Of a stretch of 41,525 nt of DNA, positions 6,737 to 34,396 are shown piece after piece; position 1 is the first letter of the stretch; every line of letters starts with the position of its first letter. Under the pieces are notes generated by a model that saw only the letters and a list, made by a program, of their open reading frames with translations, had not been told where the DNA came from and did not search any database. A program made the position numbers and the translations under genes. The stretch spans positions 1 through 41,525 of the IMG/VR virus record IMGVR_UViG_3300042923_000582; one strand, given 5' to 3'. Source of the stretch: a virus.

Positions 6737-8065
6737 ATGCGATCAATTAAAATAGAACCATACCCAAAGCAAGTAGTATTCTTTACCTCTACTAAAAGAT
6801 ATATAGCTTATGGTGGAGCTCGTGGCGGTGGTAAAAGTTGGGCAGCAAGAACAAAAGCTGTGCTATTAGCTTTAAACTACTCGGGCATACAAATTATTAT
6901 ACTCAGAAGAACATTGAAAGAGTTGAAAGAAAATCATGTATTACCTTTAATGATTTTACTTGACGGAGTGGCAAAGTATAACGCGCAAGAAAAAGAGTTT
7001 ATATTTCCAAATAAAAGCAGGATATTGCTAGGCTATTGTTCTGCTGAATCTGATGTATTACAATACCAAGGGCAAGCATATGATGTTGTATTTTTAGAAG
7101 AAGCTACACAATTTACAGAGTTTCAATTTACAACAATGACAGAAAGCAATCGTTCTAGTGGTATGATGAAGGAAAGATTTACTCCTAGAATGTATTTTAC
7201 ATGTAACCCTGGTGGAGTTGGTCATGCTTGGGTAAAAAGATTATTTGTAGATAAAGACTATAGGAACAAAGAAAACCCTAACAACTATGATTTTATACCA
7301 TCTACAGTATATGACAATGAGTTCCTAATGACTAACAACCCTGAGTATGTTGAGAATCTTGAAAACCTTCCTGAGATGCGTAAAAGAGCAATGTTGTATG
7401 GGGATTGGGACGCATTTGAAGGTCAATACTTTGATGAATTTGATAGAGATATTCATATAATAGATCCTTTTGCAATACCTGACGAATGGCGAAGATATAT
7501 CACAATAGACTATGGACTTGATATGTTGGCAGCTTACTTTATAGCAACAGATACTCACAATAAGGCCTATGTATATAAAGAGATATATCAAAGTGGTTTA
7601 ATTATATCTGATGCAGCTAAGAAAATTAAAGAAATGATTAACGAAAAGATATATGAGATATTTGCTCCGCCTGATTTGTGGAATAAAAGGCAAGAAACAG
7701 GCAAGAGTGCTGCAGAGATATTTGGTGACAATGGAGTATGGCTAGTAAAAGCTAATAATGATAGGGTGCAAGGTTGGTATAATCTGAAAGAGTGGTTAAA
7801 ACCTTACGAGGATGAACAGAGCATAAAGACAGCCAATCTAGTAATAACTAAGAATTGTGTAAACCTTATAAGAACACTACCACAATTGCAATGCGATCCT
7901 AAAGACCCTAATGACACAGCAAATGAACCTCACGAACTGACACACGCACCCGACGCAATACGATATTGGACTTCTGGCAGACCAACACCAACGAGAATAA
8001 TGGAGCCGAAACCGGCGGATAAATTAATAGATAAACTACAGCCTAAACCTAAAATAAAGATGTAG
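6737..8065 (+). CDS. terL: terminase large subunit
   Basis: This is a 442-residue packaging motor. The N-terminal ATPase has Walker A GGARGGGKS (about residues 28-36) and Walker B VVFLEEATQ (about 116-124), followed by a coupling TCNPGG motif (about 155-160). The C-terminal RNase H-like nuclease has TIDYGLD (about 254-260) and a late acidic motif in HAPDAIRYW (about 411-419). Length and motif order are normal for the family. It translocates DNA into the prohead through the portal encoded downstream and cuts the concatemer. Confidence 0.95.
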   Translation: MRSIKIEPYPKQVVFFTSTKRYIAYGGARGGGKSWAARTKAVLLALNYSGIQIIILRRTLKELKENHVLPLMILLDGVAKYNAQEKEFIFPNKSRILLGYCSAESDVLQYQGQAYDVVFLEEATQFTEFQFTTMTESNRSSGMMKERFTPRMYFTCNPGGVGHAWVKRLFVDKDYRNKENPNNYDFIPSTVYDNEFLMTNNPEYVENLENLPEMRKRAMLYGDWDAFEGQYFDEFDRDIHIIDPFAIPDEWRRYITIDYGLDMLAAYFIATDTHNKAYVYKEIYQSGLIISDAAKKIKEMINEKIYEIFAPPDLWNKRQETGKSAAEIFGDNGVWLVKANNDRVQGWYNLKEWLKPYEDEQSIKTANLVITKNCVNLIRTLPQLQCDPKDPNDTANEPHELTHAPDAIRYWTSGRPTPTRIMEPKPADKLIDKLQPKPKIKM

Positions 8066-8291: not shown

Positions 8292-10289
8292 GTGGGCAAA
8301 AAGTTAGCAGAAAGAATAAAGAAAGCAGTAAGTGCATTAACCGATGGAGTAACCAAAGCAGGTAATATATATGATTACTCTTCTAAAGAAGGTAGAGAAA
8401 GAACAGTAACATTCTTATATGACTATGCTAAGACATACCGCACACAATGGGTTGAGCTATGGAGAATGTATGACGATTATGTAGAAGGTAAGCATAAAAC
8501 ACAGTTAGAGATACAAGAATCATGTGAAAAAGCCGGCATACCTTGGATTCCTGCAATAATTCCTGACCCTTGGATTCAAGTAGAAAGTCAAATAATACCC
8601 GATATACCTGACTTTGAATTCAACGGCCGTGATGATGATCTAGACAGTCAAAAGGCGAAACAAAGAGAATTTGTAGTTAAGTATGTAGTAGAAAATAACA
8701 AGCTTAATGCTATGAATACCATGAATGAACGTAGATTAAATAAGCTTGGCAATGCTTTTTGGAAGGTTGCTTGGGATGGAAGAAAAGAAGCACCTGGAAA
8801 ACATGGAGATATAGTAATTGGGGATCCTGATTGCGCAACAATATTCCCTGACCCTGCAGCAATAGACATAGACGATTGCGAATTTATTGATTATGCCTAC
8901 AGAGTACACAAAAACAAAGCTGCTAGGGCATTTAGAGAAGAACTTAAAGCGCTTGAAATTACAATTAATGAAATAGGACTAGATGGGAACCATTCAGATA
9001 CACAAATATATAACTCCAAGGTGCATGAGTTGGACGATGATACAGTACAAATTATAGAACATTGGTTTAGACAGCTAGAAGATGGCAATGACACTTATGA
9101 ATATGAAATATTCGACGAACTAAGAGGAAAGCCATACACAGTAAGTCAAAAGGTTAAATATGAAGCAGGGGACATTGCTTGCTCGATACTTATAAACGAT
9201 ACAGAAGTTAAATACATCCCTAAGTATTGGATAAAGACAGGTAAACAAAATAAGATGTACCCATTTGTTAAGTACTGCAAGATACCTGATGAAAACAACT
9301 TTTGGGATAAATCAGAATTAAAGCCTATATTAGATTTGGTAGATGCTGCTGACAGAGAACTTGCAATCGCACTTCTAAATGATGCTTTTATGGGTAATGA
9401 CATAATCATATCAGAGGAAAATGCTTTTGCTGATGATGGAACACATGAAAATAGACCAGGCGCAGAATGGAAAATGAAAACAGGCATGCTTAATTCAGTA
9501 AGAAGATTAAGCGGACTAGGTCAACCAAGTAACAGACTAGAAATGATTAACTTCCTCCGTGGGGTTATCCAAGAAACAGTAGGAAACTTTGACAGCGCAC
9601 AAGGTAAAGAGCCTGTAAGAGTAACAACAGCAAGTGGAATTGCACAACTTAACGAAAGAGCAGATGCAAGAAAGAACATCAAGAAAGCTGATAGGCTAGC
9701 AGGATTTGAAAGGCTGTATGAACTAATAGATTGGACAGCATTAGAATTCTACGATGATGATAGACTAATATTTATTGGTGTCAAGGATGATGAAACAAGA
9801 GCCAAGTTTAGCCAAGGCTTGCAAGGCATTGAAGGTCTACCAATGAATTTAGACATTAATCAAGGACCCGTAATATTCAAATTCAACTCCGATAAAATGA
9901 GAGTACTTGACAATGACACGACAGAAACGGCAGACGAAGCACAATACTATTATCCTCGTGTAGATGCTGTAGTTAATGCAGGAGATGGACTAAATAAGTC
10001 AAAAGCATTTACATTGGCATCAACTGAAAACCTATTAAAACTCAATATAACACCACAAAATTATAAGATAGTCATAGCAATGGTAGATATAATGGATTTG
10101 CCGAATAGAAAAGAGATAAGAGAGCATTTAGAAACAATGTATGCTCCGCAACCTCCACAGCCTGCAGTCGAAGAAGAACAACCTTTGAATGTTGATGATA
10201 TACTAAGCCAATTGACACCGGAGGAAATACAGGCATTAGAAGAAAACCCAGAGTTACTTGATGATTTAATGCAGGGAGATCAAATATAG
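8292..10289 (+). CDS. portal protein (short-tailed phage type)
   Basis: This is a 665-residue protein with the length and character of P22-like portals: a mixed N-terminal wing, a central stem region (about 380-480, with the conserved-looking AQGKEPVRVTTASGIAQL) and an acidic Gln/Glu-rich C-terminal tail (about 615-665). It forms the ring through which DNA enters and leaves the head, and it should contact the terminase and the tail adaptor. The start is GTG at 8292 behind AAAGGAGTTGATACA; no ATG is closer to a ribosome site. It is separated from terL by the small zinc ribbon gene and a terminator. Confidence 0.88.
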   Translation: MGKKLAERIKKAVSALTDGVTKAGNIYDYSSKEGRERTVTFLYDYAKTYRTQWVELWRMYDDYVEGKHKTQLEIQESCEKAGIPWIPAIIPDPWIQVESQIIPDIPDFEFNGRDDDLDSQKAKQREFVVKYVVENNKLNAMNTMNERRLNKLGNAFWKVAWDGRKEAPGKHGDIVIGDPDCATIFPDPAAIDIDDCEFIDYAYRVHKNKAARAFREELKALEITINEIGLDGNHSDTQIYNSKVHELDDDTVQIIEHWFRQLEDGNDTYEYEIFDELRGKPYTVSQKVKYEAGDIACSILINDTEVKYIPKYWIKTGKQNKMYPFVKYCKIPDENNFWDKSELKPILDLVDAADRELAIALLNDAFMGNDIIISEENAFADDGTHENRPGAEWKMKTGMLNSVRRLSGLGQPSNRLEMINFLRGVIQETVGNFDSAQGKEPVRVTTASGIAQLNERADARKNIKKADRLAGFERLYELIDWTALEFYDDDRLIFIGVKDDETRAKFSQGLQGIEGLPMNLDINQGPVIFKFNSDKMRVLDNDTTETADEAQYYYPRVDAVVNAGDGLNKSKAFTLASTENLLKLNITPQNYKIVIAMVDIMDLPNRKEIREHLETMYAPQPPQPAVEEEQPLNVDDILSQLTPEEIQALEENPELLDDLMQGDQI

Positions 10290-26134: not shown

Positions 26135-27409
26135 TTGGATCTCGCTATATTAATCACATTCACTGGCATAGGCTACTATATCTTATCAGAGTTTTTCGCC
26201 AAAGAGCAAACATTAGAAGATTACCTAAGGCACGGCATTAATACTGGTCAAACTGGTACTGGCAAATCTGTTAAATGCAGAAATGATATACTTGAATTTA
26301 AAAAATATGGTGGCTGTTTATTTATAGACCAACATGGAGTAGATAGCGAAAAGCTTTTAAATGAAATACCATTGGAAGATGTAGAAAGAACTATATATAT
26401 TAATCCCGCTGATTTAGAAATGCCTATAGGAATTAGTGTTTTTAGTGATGAAAAAGGGGAGCTGCAGAACGAATTATCTGTTAACCAATTGATATCCATA
26501 TTTGAAGCTTTATGGTCAAATAGCATCGGGCCACAAACTGAAGATTTAATAAGAATGTCTAGTTTATCCATAGTAGAGCAGGAAATATCAACTTTACTCG
26601 AAGCTTATTTAATGCTTACAAGTGAACAGTACAGAAATAGTATTAATGTAAAAAATGAAGTAGCGAAAGATTTTTGGGAAAATTGTTTTCCTGATTTTAA
26701 ATCAACTCAATTAGCGCCGCCCTTAAATAAATTTCGTGCATTAATTGCTCCAACTGTGCATAGGCTTGTACTATGTCAGAGTAAACCGAAACTAGACCTA
26801 CTTCAAGCCATGGACGAAGGTAAAATAATTATCTGTAATTTTTCTCAAAAGTTAGGGGATAAAACAAGTCAACTTTTATCAGCTATCACCGTAAGCAAAA
26901 TACAACTATTAGGCTTTACTCGAGATGAAAATAGTAAACCTTTCGGAGTATTCCTTGATGAATTTCAAAATTATGTTATAAGAACATTTTCCAAGTTTCT
27001 TTCAGAAGCACGAAAATTCAATATGCCTATGAGTTTATATCACCAATATAATTCGCAGGTTCCTGATTGGTTACTTGATGCCATTGCCGGAAATTGCGGA
27101 AGTAGATATAGCTTTAGAGTCGGAGAATTAGATGCAGCATACCTAGCTAAATTTCTAAAACCTTTTACTGAAGATGATTTAATTAATTTGCCTAATTTCA
27201 AGTATATTGCAAAGCGACTAGTCAATGGCAAAAAGGAAAAGCTTGCAATCAAGTATAAGGCTCCAAAACCTCCAAAGGTGTATGGTTATGGCGAAGAGAT
27301 TAAAAAACGTTCTAGGGAACTTTACGGCACACCAAGGGGCAAAGTTGAGGAAGATATTAAAAATAGGATTAATGCAAAAACGAAAAGCACAAATGAGGGG
27401 GAATTTTAA
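26135..27409 (+). CDS. VirD4/HerA-type DNA-transfer ATPase (coupling protein-like)
   Basis: This is a 424-residue protein. One N-terminal membrane helix (about residues 2-20) precedes a RecA-like motor with Walker A GQTGTGKS (about 39-46), Walker B-like GVFLDEFQNY (about 271-280), and a C-terminal region of the TraG/TraD-like kind (LINLPNFKYIAKRL). Such hexameric ATPases pump plasmid DNA in conjugation. It is not the packaging motor, which is terL. The start is TTG at 26135 behind GGGGGTAG; no ATG suits better. It is coupled to the next gene as TAATG. Neither a relaxase nor other mating genes are visible, so any transfer would need a helper. Confidence 0.75.
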   Translation: MDLAILITFTGIGYYILSEFFAKEQTLEDYLRHGINTGQTGTGKSVKCRNDILEFKKYGGCLFIDQHGVDSEKLLNEIPLEDVERTIYINPADLEMPIGISVFSDEKGELQNELSVNQLISIFEALWSNSIGPQTEDLIRMSSLSIVEQEISTLLEAYLMLTSEQYRNSINVKNEVAKDFWENCFPDFKSTQLAPPLNKFRALIAPTVHRLVLCQSKPKLDLLQAMDEGKIIICNFSQKLGDKTSQLLSAITVSKIQLLGFTRDENSKPFGVFLDEFQNYVIRTFSKFLSEARKFNMPMSLYHQYNSQVPDWLLDAIAGNCGSRYSFRVGELDAAYLAKFLKPFTEDDLINLPNFKYIAKRLVNGKKEKLAIKYKAPKPPKVYGYGEEIKKRSRELYGTPRGKVEEDIKNRINAKTKSTNEGEF

Positions 27410-28167
27410 TGATACTGACTAAAAGAGATAAGCAAATGTTAATCACACTTCATAACAATAGGTTTATGAATACCGACCAAATTGCGGAGCTCTTCTATAA
27501 ATATGACGAAGAAGGCAAAGAAAATAAACTATATAGAGATATTGCCTTAAGACGGCTCCGCAAAATGAAAGCTAAAGAAAACTTATTGATACTTGAATAT
27601 ATTCCCTATGCTAGAGAGAGTAAAGTCTATACCCTAGCCGAAAAAGGCTCAATCATGGTATGCAGTTGGCTTAATAAAAAATATGAAAGCTTTACATCTA
27701 AAAATGATATGCTCCAAATAGGCTTAGTCGAACACAGTTTAGAGATAAATGATATATACATACGATTACTGGCATTATGCCAAAAATACAATTATGAAAT
27801 GCTGGCTTTCTTAGTTGAAAGACACAATCGCAGAACAGTAAAGCATAATGGAATGAATATGACTTTTCAACCCGATATGTTTATGATAATAAAAAATAGA
27901 TCCACACAAAAAGGCAAAGCCTATTATGTTGAATTAGACCGAAACACCGAAGCACCTAAGAAGTTTGCACAAAAGGTTATAGCCTATGAATCCTTTTATC
28001 ATGCTGATGTGTTTAAAGAGGATTGGAACAATCAAAACATAAGACCTGACATATTAGTATTAACCGATAATAAAAATCGTTCTGAAAGGCTACAAAGTGC
28101 AATCAAGAGTAGTTTGAAATGGGTATTTATAGAGAAGGATAATATAGAAATAATATTTAGGGGGTAG
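27409..28167 (+). CDS. replication-relaxation (MobC-like) family protein
   Basis: This is a 252-residue protein. A winged-helix N-terminus (LTKRDKQMLITLHNNRFM, TDQIAELF, LRRLRKMK) is followed by a nuclease-like alpha/beta domain with QPDMFMII and YYVELDRNTE (about 154-180), where Asp, Glu and Lys are arranged as in restriction-like folds. The order of domains matches the replication-relaxation proteins of Gram-positive plasmids and integrative elements, which often lie beside a HerA/FtsK-like ATPase as here. It may bind or process the neighbouring non-coding DNA in transfer or replication. Confidence 0.7.
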   Translation: MILTKRDKQMLITLHNNRFMNTDQIAELFYKYDEEGKENKLYRDIALRRLRKMKAKENLLILEYIPYARESKVYTLAEKGSIMVCSWLNKKYESFTSKNDMLQIGLVEHSLEINDIYIRLLALCQKYNYEMLAFLVERHNRRTVKHNGMNMTFQPDMFMIIKNRSTQKGKAYYVELDRNTEAPKKFAQKVIAYESFYHADVFKEDWNNQNIRPDILVLTDNKNRSERLQSAIKSSLKWVFIEKDNIEIIFRG

Positions 28168-29503: not shown

Positions 29504-29887
29504 CTATTTTATTTCAATATTTTTCCTAAAATAATCTATCATATATCTAACAAACGCACTTTCATTTTCAAACTTTTTAGCCGTTTCCTTTATATATTTC
29601 TTCTGCGACCTTGTAACATTTGCTACAAGTCTTTCGTCTACCAATTCAGATTTAACAGGGGTTTCAACAGTGTACTTATTAGTGACATTGTTAGTGTACT
29701 GTGTAGTGCCTTGTTCATTGTCATTGTTACTACTTTGTTCACTACCTTTGTTATTGTCTTGTTCATCATTCTGTGCATTGTCTTTGTCATTATCTTGCTT
29801 AGTATTAAGTTCACTATCTTTCTGAAAAAAAATGCCGACCCCTTGCCCTGGCTTTATCCTCTCCGATATATTAACCTTGCTCGCCAC
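29504..29887 (-). CDS. RHH partition partner (ParB-like centromere binder)
   Basis: This is a 127-residue protein. About residues 22-72 are a low-complexity run of Asp, Asn, Gln, Ser and Thr. The last 55 residues (LVANVTRSQKKYIKETAKKF, then SAFVRYMIDYFRK) read as a ribbon-helix-helix DNA-binding domain. Small ParA proteins of type Ib usually pair with such RHH proteins in place of HTH ParB. The start overlaps the end of parA by 17 bases. It would bind a centromere and load onto ParA. The N-terminal extension is unusual; it may be disordered and promote clustering. Confidence 0.7.
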   Translation of the reverse strand: MASKVNISERIKPGQGVGIFFQKDSELNTKQDNDKDNAQNDEQDNNKGSEQSSNNDNEQGTTQYTNNVTNKYTVETPVKSELVDERLVANVTRSQKKYIKETAKKFENESAFVRYMIDYFRKNIEIK

Positions 29888-30608
29888 GATCTATTACCTC
29901 CTGTGCTAATCTTTCGTATAATTCACCTAACTCTTTATCAATATCACATACTGGCAAACCTTCAACAGTTGAATCTTGGAAAGCAACTCTATCAGGTATA
30001 ACCACATTAAAAGCTAATCCAGTACCTTGAATGATTTCTAACACTTGTTTATTATGGTTATTTTTCTTGAACATTGTCGGCAACAAGCCTAGTATTTTTA
30101 ACTTAGGATTATAAGCCCTACATTCCTCTATTGTATTCTGCAACAAGCCGAAACCTTCCCAACATAGGAATTGAGTTTGCATCGGTACTACTACCCCATC
30201 AGAAGCCACCAAAGCATTTATAGAAAGGTTTCCTAATGACGGAGGGCAATCTATAAGGATATAGTCGAAGAAGTCTATAACTGGCTTTAAACAGTTTTTA
30301 AGGGTATCGTGTTTGCCTTTCAACTCCAACTCTGCAGCCGCCAAATTAATATTGCTTGGTACAAAGAAGAAATTCTCATTGTCTGTGATTATATCTTTTC
30401 TTATGTCATACCCATTCAACACATTGTATATTGTGGTTCCCATCAGATGCGGTTCAAACTTCATGCTGATTGTTAAACTGCTCTGTGCATCAAAGTCTAT
30501 CAGTAGTACTTTTTTACCTTTGTTGATTAATGCCCATCCTAAGTTTAATGTTGTAGTGCTTTTACCTATGCCACCCTTTTGATTAATGATTGATATTACC
30601 TTTGCCAT
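29871..30608 (-). CDS. parA: ParA partition ATPase (type Ib-like)
   Basis: This is a 245-residue protein. Deviant Walker A KGGIGKST (about residues 11-18), switch I-like DFDAQSSLT (about 39-47) and Walker B ILIDCPPS (about 118-125) identify it. There is no N-terminal HTH, so autoregulation is probably by the partner protein. It positions the plasmid prophage at division by ATP-dependent nucleoid binding. It lies directly downstream of rep and overlaps its partner gene. Presence of a partition system with no integrase is strong support for a plasmid-like prophage. Confidence 0.93.
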   Translation of the reverse strand: MAKVISIINQKGGIGKSTTTLNLGWALINKGKKVLLIDFDAQSSLTISMKFEPHLMGTTIYNVLNGYDIRKDIITDNENFFFVPSNINLAAAELELKGKHDTLKNCLKPVIDFFDYILIDCPPSLGNLSINALVASDGVVVPMQTQFLCWEGFGLLQNTIEECRAYNPKLKILGLLPTMFKKNNHNKQVLEIIQGTGLAFNVVIPDRVAFQDSTVEGLPVCDIDKELGELYERLAQEVIDRGEQG

Positions 30609-30708: not shown

Positions 30709-31353
30709 TTAAACATCAATGAATTTATTAATCTCATAATCTGCTTTTTCTGTTACTAATGCTTTCTCAAAGTAGTTCTTGAATGATTTGATATTTCCTG
30801 CTCTGTATTGGTCTATTACCCTATCGTAAACCAATAAAACTCTATCCTCTGGTAACTTCATTTTGTCTGAATAATGTCTGAGCAAATCATCTATCGTGTC
30901 AAACTCCATCAGATCAGATTTATTATTACACTCATTATTATTAATATCATTTATTAGTAGTATCGGATTTTCCTCATATGGCTTTTCCTTATCGGGAAAT
31001 TCCGTAAGTGGCTTTTCGTCCATATCCGGCTTTTCCGTAAATGGAGTTTCATAAACCTTACTTTCCCAATACAGTATTTTACCCTTATCGTCTTTTACTG
31101 GATATTTTTCCATATAGCAATATTCTTTAAGTTCTTTTAGTCCGGCATAAACACTATCTCTACCATCTTTAGACTTTTTTATTAAATGTTCTACTATAAC
31201 AGTCCAATCATCAGGCTTGCTTAATAAATATGATAATATTCCTTTAGCTTTCCAACTCAATCTATCATCAGATAAAAATTCTTTATTCATAATTACATAT
31301 GGATTATCTTTATTTTTAACTACCCTAACGATACTTTTATCTTCTTTTCCCAA
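30709..31353 (-). CDS. plasmid replication initiator-like protein
   Basis: This is a 214-residue protein. The N-terminal winged-helix region (IMNKEFLSDDRLSWKAKGIL, YLLSKPDDWTV, then SKDGRDSVYAGLKEL) is of the initiator/replisome-organiser kind found in Firmicute plasmids and phages. Residues 100-132 are ExPxx pentapeptides, and the last 70 are helical. It should bind the origin, probably the iterons inside its own gene. The start is TTG, with its ribosome site (GAGAGG) buried in a hairpin, so expression is kept low. It stands at the head of the rep-parA-partner unit. Confidence 0.72.
   Translation of the reverse strand: MGKEDKSIVRVVKNKDNPYVIMNKEFLSDDRLSWKAKGILSYLLSKPDDWTVIVEHLIKKSKDGRDSVYAGLKELKEYCYMEKYPVKDDKGKILYWESKVYETPFTEKPDMDEKPLTEFPDKEKPYEENPILLINDINNNECNNKSDLMEFDTIDDLLRHYSDKMKLPEDRVLLVYDRVIDQYRAGNIKSFKNYFEKALVTEKADYEINKFIDV
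30965..31050. repeat. iteron-like array inside rep
   Basis: Six copies of a unit starting GG[A/C]NTTTC begin at 30965, 30980, 30995, 31010, 31028 and 31043, spaced 15, 15, 15, 18 and 15 bases. On the rep strand the best copies read GAAAAGCC. In protein they give ExPxx repeats. Iterons in the middle of the initiator gene are known from lambda O and RepA_N plasmids, so this is a candidate origin. Confidence 0.6.
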
Positions 31354-31939: not shown

Positions 31940-32506
31940 ATGAGAAAAAGAATAAGACGCGGAGATATATGGTTCATAAATACACCGGAAGGAATAGGGT
32001 GTGAACAGCAAGGCGATAGAGTTGCATTGGTAATAAGTCCGGATATATGCCAAGAAAAATCAGACAATGTAATCGTCTTACTGGGGACAAAACAAGAGAA
32101 AAAAGTAGACCTTCAAACTCAATTTGTAGTAAATACGGATTGGGGTTTGAAATATGATACAGTTTTCATGGCAGAGCAAATCAAAAGTGTAGATAGACAA
32201 AGATTTATGATGTACTGTACTCACTTAGATAATTTCAAGATGCAGGAAGCTCATAAAGCAATGTGTGTAGCGCAAGGATTACTTGAACCTATCAATAATA
32301 AATACATCAAATTACTAATCGACTACATAAATATGCTAGATCAAGAATTAATAACATATCAATCAGCTTCTGTGCAAAAATTGCGAGAAGAAAAAATCAT
32401 TGAGTTAAAAGAATACTGTGAAGAATACAGATATGACTACAGAGTGTTTCTCGAGAGGTACTTGTTGTTTAAGGAGGTCGAGAATATTGAAAGAATTTAC
32501 AGCTAG
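31940..32506 (+). CDS. MazF/PemK-like endoribonuclease with helical C-terminal extension
   Basis: This is a 188-residue protein. Residues 1-110 match MazF: RRGDIWFINTPEGIGCEQQG, DRVALVIS (catalytic Arg), LLGTKQ (catalytic Thr) and FMAEQIKSVDRQRF. Such enzymes cut mRNA at short motifs. Residues 110-188 are helical and charged, well beyond the usual 110-120 length of MazF, with no antitoxin gene adjoining. It is first in an operon with a helical-repeat protein and a secreted repeat peptide, and overlaps the second gene, so the extension may dock that protein. ATG 31940 follows GGGGGTG. Confidence 0.8.
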   Translation: MRKRIRRGDIWFINTPEGIGCEQQGDRVALVISPDICQEKSDNVIVLLGTKQEKKVDLQTQFVVNTDWGLKYDTVFMAEQIKSVDRQRFMMYCTHLDNFKMQEAHKAMCVAQGLLEPINNKYIKLLIDYINMLDQELITYQSASVQKLREEKIIELKEYCEEYRYDYRVFLERYLLFKEVENIERIYS

Positions 32507-33002
32507 AAAAAACGAAGTACTAGAAATGTATAAAAAAAACCAGTATTTAGAGACAGCCAATAGATGCGCAGAATACATAGGCTATATAGATTTAGACGAT
32601 TTTGAAATGTTCGGAGAATTGTATTTCTTCAATGATGTTATATTCAACTGTTTCTTTAGATTAAGTGATGAAGAACAATGCTTAAAGGCTAGTAAAGAAT
32701 GTGTAAGATATGCAACTACAGATTATGAAACTCGCAAGGCTATACAAAATCAAATAAGGCTTGCAGTAAATATAGGAAAAGAACATGAAGCATTAGTCAA
32801 GATAGAAGATAACCTGGAGTATTTTAAAAGTATCGACCATACATTATCATATGCAGATACATTAGTTTTAAAAGGAAAGGCAACAAAAGATTCAAGCTAC
32901 ATCAAAGAAGCTATTGAAATATATAAACAATCAGATATTGACACAACAGCAGAGCAAGAGCGAGCAAAAGCAGCGATTAAAGCATTAAGACATTTATCCT
33001 AA
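32487..33002 (+). CDS. TPR-like helical-repeat protein, candidate peptide receptor
   Basis: This 171-residue, all-helical protein has TPR-like pairs (NQYLETANRCAEYIGYID, EEQCLKASKECVRYATTD, YIKEAIEIYKQSDI). Peptide receptors of the RRNPP class (Rap, PlcR, AimR) sense small peptides with TPR domains, and their peptide gene is normally next, as here. Unlike those it has no HTH and is about half as long. The start is TTG 32487 behind AAGGAGG at 9 bases, overlapping the MazF-like gene by 20 bases; the upstream ATG at 32418 gives a Cys/Arg-rich start that looks non-coding. It might bind the MazF-like protein and be regulated by the peptide. Confidence 0.65.
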   Translation: MKEFTARKNEVLEMYKKNQYLETANRCAEYIGYIDLDDFEMFGELYFFNDVIFNCFFRLSDEEQCLKASKECVRYATTDYETRKAIQNQIRLAVNIGKEHEALVKIEDNLEYFKSIDHTLSYADTLVLKGKATKDSSYIKEAIEIYKQSDIDTTAEQERAKAAIKALRHLS

Positions 33003-33057: not shown

Positions 33058-33243
33058 ATGAAGAAGTTAATAGCAATACTATTAATAGTAATGACATTGA
33101 TAACAGTAGGTGTGTTCGCTTGGGATGATACGGATCCAAGAGGTAAAAGAATAGGTTGGGATGATACAGATCCTAGAGGAACATCAATAACAGTTGCTTG
33201 GGATGATACAGACCCAAGAGGGCCCGGAATAATAAAGGCATAA
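33058..33243 (+). CDS. secreted peptide precursor with three WDDTDPRG repeats (candidate pheromone)
   Basis: This is a 61-residue protein. MKKLIAILLIVMTLITVGVFA is a full signal peptide ending in a V-F-A cleavage site. The mature part starts exactly at the first WDDTDPRG (residues 22-29); identical octapeptides follow at 34-41 and 48-55, joined by KRIG and TSITVA. Codons differ among repeats while the residues do not, a sign of selection on the peptide. Exported repeat precursors like this are typical of signalling peptides. The gene directly follows a TPR-like gene. ATG 33058 has AAGGAGGTGATACAA. Alternatives are a RiPP precursor or a surface peptide. Confidence 0.75.
   Translation: MKKLIAILLIVMTLITVGVFAWDDTDPRGKRIGWDDTDPRGTSITVAWDDTDPRGPGIIKA
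33121..33222 (+). repeat. three 24-base repeats encoding WDDTDPRG
   Basis: The copies lie at 33121-33144, 33157-33180 and 33199-33222. They differ at third positions (ACG/ACA, GAT/GAC, CCA/CCT, GGT/GGA/GGG) yet encode the same octapeptide. Confidence 0.95.
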
Positions 33244-33248
33244 AAATA

Positions 33249-33275
33249 GCGAGGTTAATTCCTCGCCTTTTTTAT
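33249..33275 (+). terminator. terminator of the peptide operon
   Basis: GCGAGG (33249-33254) pairs with CCTCGC (33261-33266) around TTAATT, then C and a T tract. It lies between the peptide gene and the convergent Cys-rich gene. Confidence 0.85.
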
Positions 33276-33397
33276 TGGGTTTGTTCGTATGTATTAGGTT
33301 TCTTTCCGGGACATTCAACAGCTTCTTTCTTACCGCCTATCGTAATAGTTTTAACCTTCTTCAACAGACATTCATCACATTCCTCTCTACATTGCAT
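33272..33397 (-). CDS. LexA-boxed small Cys-rich protein, candidate inducer/antirepressor
   Basis: This protein has 41 residues, starting MQCREECDECLLKKVKTITI and with a fourth Cys near residue 29, so a zinc knuckle (CxxxCxxC) is likely. AAAGGGGATAAA precedes the ATG at 33397; the longer frame lacks a ribosome site. Its promoter (TTCCCA, 17 bases, TACAAT) is overlapped by a perfect GAAC-N4-GTTC box. It is transcribed toward the peptide operon and away from the repressor. Several phages use an SOS-induced small protein to inactivate a repressor that cannot cleave itself; this gene is placed to do that, though nothing in its sequence proves it. Confidence 0.6.
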   Translation of the reverse strand: MQCREECDECLLKKVKTITIGGKKEAVECPGKKPNTYEQTQ

Positions 33398-33453
33398 AAT
33401 TTTATCCCCTTTATAGTTAGTAAGTATATTGTAACAAATAAAGAAAGAGATGG

Positions 33454-33465
33454 GAACATACGTTC
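33454..33465. promoter_or_regulatory. LexA (SOS) box
   Basis: GAACATACGTTC is an exact GAAC-N4-GTTC inverted repeat, the Gram-positive LexA/DinR core. It overlaps the -35 (33456-33451, leftward) of the Cys-rich gene's promoter, whose -10 TACAAT is at 33433-33428. The position would give tight repression until DNA damage. Confidence 0.75.
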
Positions 33466-33610
33466 TCATAAAATTATTATATTTTCATATATATTCGCAA
33501 GAACGCAAAGAAAAACAGGTATAATTTTATTTTACACCCGTTCCCTATATAAATAAATGTATATCGTTATATATAATATGACATTATTCGACTAATATAT
33601 AATTAGATTG

Positions 33611-34006
33611 TCATTTCTTTGCGTTACGCAGCCAATCAATCATAACACCCATATGAAAAGGAGTAATCTTATCCAAGTCATACCCTTCTAACATTTTAGC
33701 CACTGTTAAATATGGTGTATTTTCCTCTTTAACTACAAACTCCTGCAGATCAGGTGGAAGGTGCTTAAATATGCTTTCCTCATCATAATAAATCTTTTCT
33801 TCGTCAATTCCGTTAATTAAAATTTCCTCAATGCTACAATCAAAAAATTCTGCCATTTTGTGAAAAACTTCTGGGTCAGAATTCTTGACCTTATCCTTTA
33901 TTATCTTATAGACATTTCCGTCACTCATGCCTATAAATTCGGATAACTCTTTGACATTCTTTTTATTCTTCTTTAGTAAGAAGTCAATTTTCTCACCTCT
34001 GGTCAC
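33611..34006 (-). CDS. CI-like repressor (XRE family)
   Basis: This is a 131-residue protein. The N-terminal HTH is RGEKIDFLLKKNKKNVKELS followed by EFIGMSDGNVYKIIKDK. Residues 70-131 form a helical C-terminal domain with no Ser-Lys peptidase motif, so RecA-driven self-cleavage is not expected. It is divergent from a Cro-like gene, and the gap holds TGAGAA repeats, making this the lysogeny switch. The start is uncertain: GTG 34015 sits on its ribosome site; GTG 34006 (VTRGEK) has GGGGGG at proper spacing and is used here. Confidence 0.82.
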   Translation of the reverse strand: MTRGEKIDFLLKKNKKNVKELSEFIGMSDGNVYKIIKDKVKNSDPEVFHKMAEFFDCSIEEILINGIDEEKIYYDEESIFKHLPPDLQEFVVKEENTPYLTVAKMLEGYDLDKITPFHMGVMIDWLRNAKK

Positions 34007-34075
34007 TTTTTTCACCCCCCAATGTTCATATATTCTCTTATTCTATCATTTATTATATACAATTTCTACAAGCAA

Positions 34076-34166
34076 TATTCTCTAACAACGATATGAGAAT
34101 TATTTAAAATATATTTGAGAATTTATGAGAAATAGTATTGACAGTGTGAGAAAATGCGAATATAAT
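34076..34166 (+). promoter_or_regulatory. lytic promoter and repressor operators
   Basis: TTGACA (34138-34143), 17 bases, TATAAT (34161-34166): a perfect consensus promoter reading to the Cro-like gene. TGAGAA occurs at 34094, 34116, 34126 and 34147, the last inside the spacer, and an inverted copy TATTCTCT is at 34076. These are likely binding sites of the CI-like and Cro-like proteins. Confidence 0.8.
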
Positions 34167-34207
34167 ATGAGTATAAGGTTAAACTATAAGAAAAGAGGTG
34201 ATAAAAC

Positions 34208-34396
34208 ATGAGACTTGATTATTGGTTAGCTGAAAAAGATATGACAGCAAAGCAATTAAGCGAGAAAGCAGACTTAAATTATTCTACTGTGCGTGACATA
34301 AAGAGCGGAAAAGTAAAAACAGCAAACCCAAGGACAGTGAGAAAATTAGCGAACGGCTTAGGTATAGAAGTAGCTGAGTTGATGAGGGAGGTATAA
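34208..34396 (+). CDS. Cro-like HTH protein
   Basis: This 62-residue protein consists of one HTH domain: YWLAEKDMTAKQLSEKADLN, YSTVRDIKSGK, then TVRKLANGLGIEVAEL. It is the first gene of the early operon behind the consensus promoter and divergent from the CI-like repressor. It probably represses the repressor gene when lytic growth begins. AGAGGTGATAAAAC precedes the ATG. Confidence 0.85.
   Translation: MRLDYWLAEKDMTAKQLSEKADLNYSTVRDIKSGKVKTANPRTVRKLANGLGIEVAELMREV

Follow-up and report, generated by a model that had tools for sequence, protein, structure and literature searches.

We propose that a 41-residue Cys-rich protein, encoded next to a short repressor in the phage genome described here, is a LexA-controlled antirepressor that switches lysogeny upon DNA damage. 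The parts of this proposal differ in strength. Judged from the sequence of a box at its promoter and from the conservation of that box, the small gene is in all probability controlled by LexA, the predicted binder. The proposal as a whole we would give about an even chance of being right, and if LexA control is granted, antirepressor action becomes a moderately favoured expectation. The DNA analysed, hereafter the window, is the whole 41,525-nt record IMGVR_UViG_3300042923_000582. Comparisons were made between the window and four loci (L048, L049, L050 and L055) on three related IMG/VR contigs.

The box, its promoter and the small gene

The elements considered first lie, in order of transcription of the small gene, as follows.

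33454-33465: LexA-type box GAACATACGTTC (minus strand GAACGTATGTTC), a GAACN4GTTC palindrome
33428-33456, minus strand: small-gene promoter, TTCCCA-17-TACAAT, with the extended -10 TGTTACAAT containing TG
33404-33412, minus strand: ribosome-binding site AAAGGGGAT, directly before the ATG and conserved in L048-L050
33272-33397, minus strand: 41-residue Cys-rich protein MQCREECDECLLKKVKTITIGGKKEAVECPGKKPNTYEQTQ, the candidate SOS-induced antirepressor
33248-33267: bidirectional terminator shared by the small gene and a convergent peptide gene

When the whole 41.5 kb was scanned, GAACN4GTTC occurred once, at 33454-33465. Dinucleotide shuffles give an expectation of 0.29 copies per window, with at least one copy in 24 of 100 shuffles, and the presence of a box somewhere in 41.5 kb is not significant. 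The significance lies in its position, because a sequence composed like this locality should contain only about 0.0002 such boxes per 100 bp, and the box sits 56 bases upstream of the small-gene ATG where, as the initial annotation had noticed, it overlaps the -35 of the promoter, three bases being common to both. GAACN4GTTC is the LexA operator of Bacillus subtilis, and clostridial LexA operators are described as GAACnnnnGTTC or GTTT variants (PMC4234289). The initial annotation had called the box perfect, which is correct for the 12-bp core but not for the full B. subtilis LexA 14-mer CGAACRNRYGTTYC, from which the minus-strand AGAACGTATGTTCC departs at one flanking base.

Alignment of the upstream regions of the five loci shows the box to be conserved. 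The distance from the box to the -10 (TGTTACAATATA) is in all four relatives exactly that of the window, and the palindromes, GAACGTATGTTC in the window and L055, GAACACTTGTTC in L048, and AAACATATGTTC in L049 and L050, fit (G/A)AACRNNYGTTC. Of the eight half-site bases only one differs among the five loci, whereas most bases between the box and the -10 vary, and the central tetranucleotides all have the R..Y form found in the Bacillus LexA box. The extended -10, TG(T/C)TACAATATA, is invariant in all five loci, and the -35 is poor in all five. The earlier proposal of LexA control is thus strongly supported by the comparison, half-sites and spacing being kept while the flanks have diverged, and the presumed operators of the phage repressor look different.

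Farther upstream, about 45 bp between the repressor and the small gene (33550-33606, TCGAATAATGTC..ATTATATATAACGATATACATTTATTTAT) are nearly invariant in the window, L048, L049 and L050, and better conserved than their surroundings. Between this stretch and the box lies an inverted repeat, AACGGGTGTAAAATAAAATTATACCTGTTTTT (33511-33545), perhaps the repressor terminator, which is kept in L049 and L050 and altered in L048.

The small gene itself, a 41-codon ORF (33397-33272) as first annotated, behind a good ribosome-binding site, is present in L048, L049 and L050 at about 98% identity. Relative to the window, synonymous and non-synonymous codon changes number 6:0 in L048, whose protein is identical to that of the window, 8:1 in L049 and 3:1 in L050, and the changes among the four sequences fall nearly all at third codon positions; on these grounds we regard it as a real coding gene under strong purifying selection. 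The L055 homologue, 34 residues long and 47% identical, retains C..C..C..L..VK.I..G.K..V..C including the C-terminal Cys. The four Cys residues could reasonably be taken for a metal site, a guess to which the AlphaFold model, a poor one with a mean pLDDT of 57.6, lends no support. The protein matches no family in Pfam, PHROGs or NCBIfam. We found no solved relative and no counterpart in a search of phage and plasmid records, and profile searches returned nothing convincing either from 14 genomes with related terminases or from 391 Clostridia genomes, the latter result indicating that the family is narrow.

The neighbouring repressor and the binder of the box

Upstream of the small gene lie the repressor, its probable operators and the start of the early operon.

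33611-34015, minus strand: CI-like repressor of 134 aa, starting at GTG 34015 or the in-frame GTG 34006
33614-33799, minus strand: C-terminal domain of the repressor, homologous to those of L048-L050 and L055, the HTH halves of which differ from the window's
34016-34207: interval between repressor and cro, in which TGAGAA occurs four times, these repeats being probably the operators of the repressor
34138-34166, plus strand: early promoter of consensus sequence, TTGACA-17-TATAAT
34208-34396, plus strand: Cro-like HTH protein of 62 aa (HTH_26, 8.1e-10), first gene of the early operon

The repressor (HTH_26 in Pfam, 5.9e-9; PHROG 8 transcriptional regulator, 2e-9) is made of a Cro/C1 HTH half, its only Pfam domain, and a short helical C-terminal half; its AlphaFold model was too poor to use. 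Relatives of the C-terminal domain sought in Clostridia were weak matches only, the best being a 243-aa HTH protein without the box, and were set aside. The initial annotation described a repressor lacking a peptidase domain, and the wider search agrees: six-frame searches, in which control genomes did give signals, found neither an S24 peptidase nor an M78 peptidase (ImmA/IrrE, PF06114) in the records of the window, L048, L049 and L050. Neither self-cleavage nor an ImmA-like protease therefore explains induction, and the small gene is thus the only SOS input visible in these four phages. In ICEBs1, the M78 metalloprotease ImmA inactivates ImmR after DNA damage. The arrangement proposed here similarly pairs a short repressor that does not cleave itself with a second, inactivating protein, but the inactivator would have to be of another kind, PF06114 being absent from all four phages.

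Is the palindrome perhaps a site for a phage regulator, either the 134-aa repressor or the Cro-like protein, so that the small gene would belong to the phage's own circuit? We think this improbable, and in particular that the box is unlikely to be the repressor's own operator. The idea draws on the fact that the window box overlaps TTTATGAGAA, a 10-mer whose other genomic occurrences are confined to the repressor-cro interval, and the repressor may also touch the small-gene promoter at the TATGAGAAC overlap. TGAGAA reaches 20.8 per kb in that 192-bp interval against 0.7 per kb genome-wide, a thirtyfold difference. Yet the repressor-cro intervals of the window, L048 and L055 contain no GAACN4GTTC, even with one mismatch allowed, those of L048 and L055 lack TGAGAA although both loci keep the box, and the HTH halves differ between loci while the box stays. 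Since the box is kept beside differing HTH halves and is absent from the repressor-cro intervals, LexA, a host factor shared by these phages, is the best candidate for its binder.

The host LexA box was also approached through digester genome G024, which carries a terminase relative at 72%. Matches to GAACRNNYGTTC looked enriched there, but six of the nine were copies of one repeat, mostly at contig ends and probably an insertion-sequence end, and the matches were dropped. A scan with GAACRTAYGTTCTCATA returned 13 scattered stretches, several in coding-like sequence, and no second case of the module. As a separate observation, the related phage L010 (G002) carries seven GAACRNNYGTTC boxes in two clusters (6783-6854 and 9304-9477), among them the exact 12-mer of the window, whereas the window, taken as a guide, would predict well below one; the seven cluster away from any recognised switch gene.

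Possible targets of the small protein

Let us assume that LexA does bind the box. In the lysogen, host LexA covering the -35 would keep the 41-aa gene off, and the short non-cleavable repressor would keep the early promoter (34138) off. Upon DNA damage, RecA would trigger LexA cleavage, freeing the extended -10 promoter to transcribe the small gene; its Cys-rich product, which may bind metal, would then attach to the repressor, most likely through the repressor's C-terminal half, so that the repressor would leave its operators and the early operon would start. We favour antirepressor action because of the adjacency of the gene to the repressor, the absence of any other visible inactivator, and one joint exchange.

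The exchange is seen between L050 and L055, two alleles at the two ends of contig IMGVR_UViG_3300042934_000350. Their identity is 97% in the HTH half, falls to 62% in the C-terminal half, 70% in the intergenic region, 75% from box to ATG and 63% in the small gene, and returns to 96% in the terminator and 87% in the peptide gene. Such a diverged block between matching flanks, running from the HTH/C-terminal junction through the end of the small gene, indicates joint exchange of the small gene with the C-terminal half of the repressor, as a movable cassette, which fits the two being partner proteins. The L055 allele is located at a contig end, and the two alleles are probably strain variants; both a strain mixture and a true duplication were considered.

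The comparison of the window with L048 points in another direction. The small proteins are identical, whereas the repressor C-terminal halves are only 47% identical, a pattern that a conserved target in the host would explain no less well and that speaks against a strict partner relation. It is not fatal to antirepressor action, because in Salmonella antirepressors are not limited to a single repressor target (PMC3121763). We nevertheless take seriously, as a tentative and rather doubtful alternative, a LexA-controlled small protein that leaves the repressor alone and aids phage growth during SOS through host RNA polymerase, LexA, the division or protease machinery, or the neighbouring operon of MazF-like and helical proteins. 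Besides the near invariance of the protein, small Cys-rich proteins can have many partners, the small phage protein gp7 of GIL01 binds host LexA (PMC9700832), and the convergent operon encodes a MazF-like toxin without a recognised antitoxin. The phage would then be left without any visible repressor inactivator, however, and some other reason would be needed for the joint exchange seen between L050 and L055.

The position of the small gene, co-directional with the repressor, directly downstream of it and within the immunity region, might also suit an SOS-induced co-repressor or lysogeny-maintenance factor, which would strengthen the repressor or dampen SOS so that lysogeny survives mild damage; co-repressors of LexA of the gp7 type are known from Gram-positive phages (PMC9700832). 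We consider this very unlikely, since leaving lysogeny is the simpler purpose for a gene that DNA damage switches on next to a repressor that is not cleaved, and in PMC3121763 the phage proteins under LexA control act as antirepressors.

The convergent operon, which shares the terminator with the small gene, deserves a separate word.

31940-32506: MazF/PemK-like gene, upstream of the peptide gene
32487-33002: 171-aa protein of no known family, likewise upstream of the peptide gene
33058-33243, plus strand: small protein, encoded downstream of both, whose N-terminus resembles a signal sequence and which contains WDDTDPRG three times

The repeats are kept as WDDTDPKG in L048, L049 and L055, and a stop falls at the third copy in L050. 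The product looks like a multi-copy secreted signal peptide. One might imagine two inputs converging on one switch, the LexA-driven Cys-rich antirepressor and the operon of MazF-like and helical proteins, with its terminal peptide as a possible population signal, both acting on the short repressor or its operon; we regard this extension as a long shot.

Lifestyle of the phage and relation to known switches

The 123 bases at the two ends of the record are identical, and the genome is therefore complete, either circular or terminally redundant. It codes for terminase, portal, holin and endolysin, and also for functions of the following kind.

29871-30608: ParA ATPase (partition)
30709-31353 and 27409-28167: replication proteins

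No integrase was found among the window ORFs scanned, a set that did not include a 1226-aa ORF and was not a six-frame search. ParA, the replication proteins and the lack of an integrase in the ORFs scanned point to a plasmid-like prophage. Most terminase relatives come from genomes of Clostridia; among full-length ones the nearest, at 65% identity, is in Christensenella hongkongensis. The phage probably lives as a plasmid in Clostridia. Elsewhere in the genome, cytosine methyltransferase matches at 1669-2830 are shared out between two ORFs that overlap, 1669-2208 and 1787-2830, each of which accounts for one part of the domain, suggesting a frameshift or a sequencing error.

To our knowledge, little has been described of the way in which temperate phages of Clostridia sense DNA damage when their repressor is short and non-cleavable. 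LexA-controlled antirepressors are known in coliphage 186 (Tum) and in the phage-plasmid N15 (AntC), itself a plasmid prophage. The candidate described here resembles both in its predicted control, and N15 also in the apparent plasmid state of the prophage. The comparison with Tum made in the initial annotation applies to the proposed mechanism and does not extend to sequence: family searches of Pfam, PHROGs and NCBIfam gave no sign of kinship to Tum, AntC or GfoA, and we have not filed the protein as a member of any of these groups. Tum is a protein of 146 aa with a DinI-like half (PMC3121763). GfoA, GftA and GfhA of the Salmonella Gifsy prophages are small LexA-controlled proteins that inactivate repressors of 136 aa which are not cleaved (PMC3121763); as here, the repressor is short and without a cleavage domain, but their LexA box is of the Gram-negative type, and the 41-aa protein has no family match.

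Other plasmid-like phages provide partial parallels. In linear plasmid phages, smORF antirepressors inactivate CI without proteolysis, as would the candidate here, but they do so independently of SOS, the small gene being controlled by a phage transcription factor (PMC10432266) where we predict LexA. In Bacillus thuringiensis, GIL01 and other phages with a LexA-controlled switch persist as extrachromosomal prophages of a Gram-positive host and respond directly to its LexA (PMC9700832, PMC4551915); the role of lysogeny repressor falls to LexA itself together with gp7, whereas the present phage has a separate HTH repressor. Within the part of the literature covered, we found no described case of a LexA-controlled antirepressor from Clostridia. 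If our proposal is true, this phage would represent a Gram-positive version of the LexA-antirepressor logic of enterobacterial phages, built on an unrelated 41-aa protein in an apparently plasmid-borne prophage.
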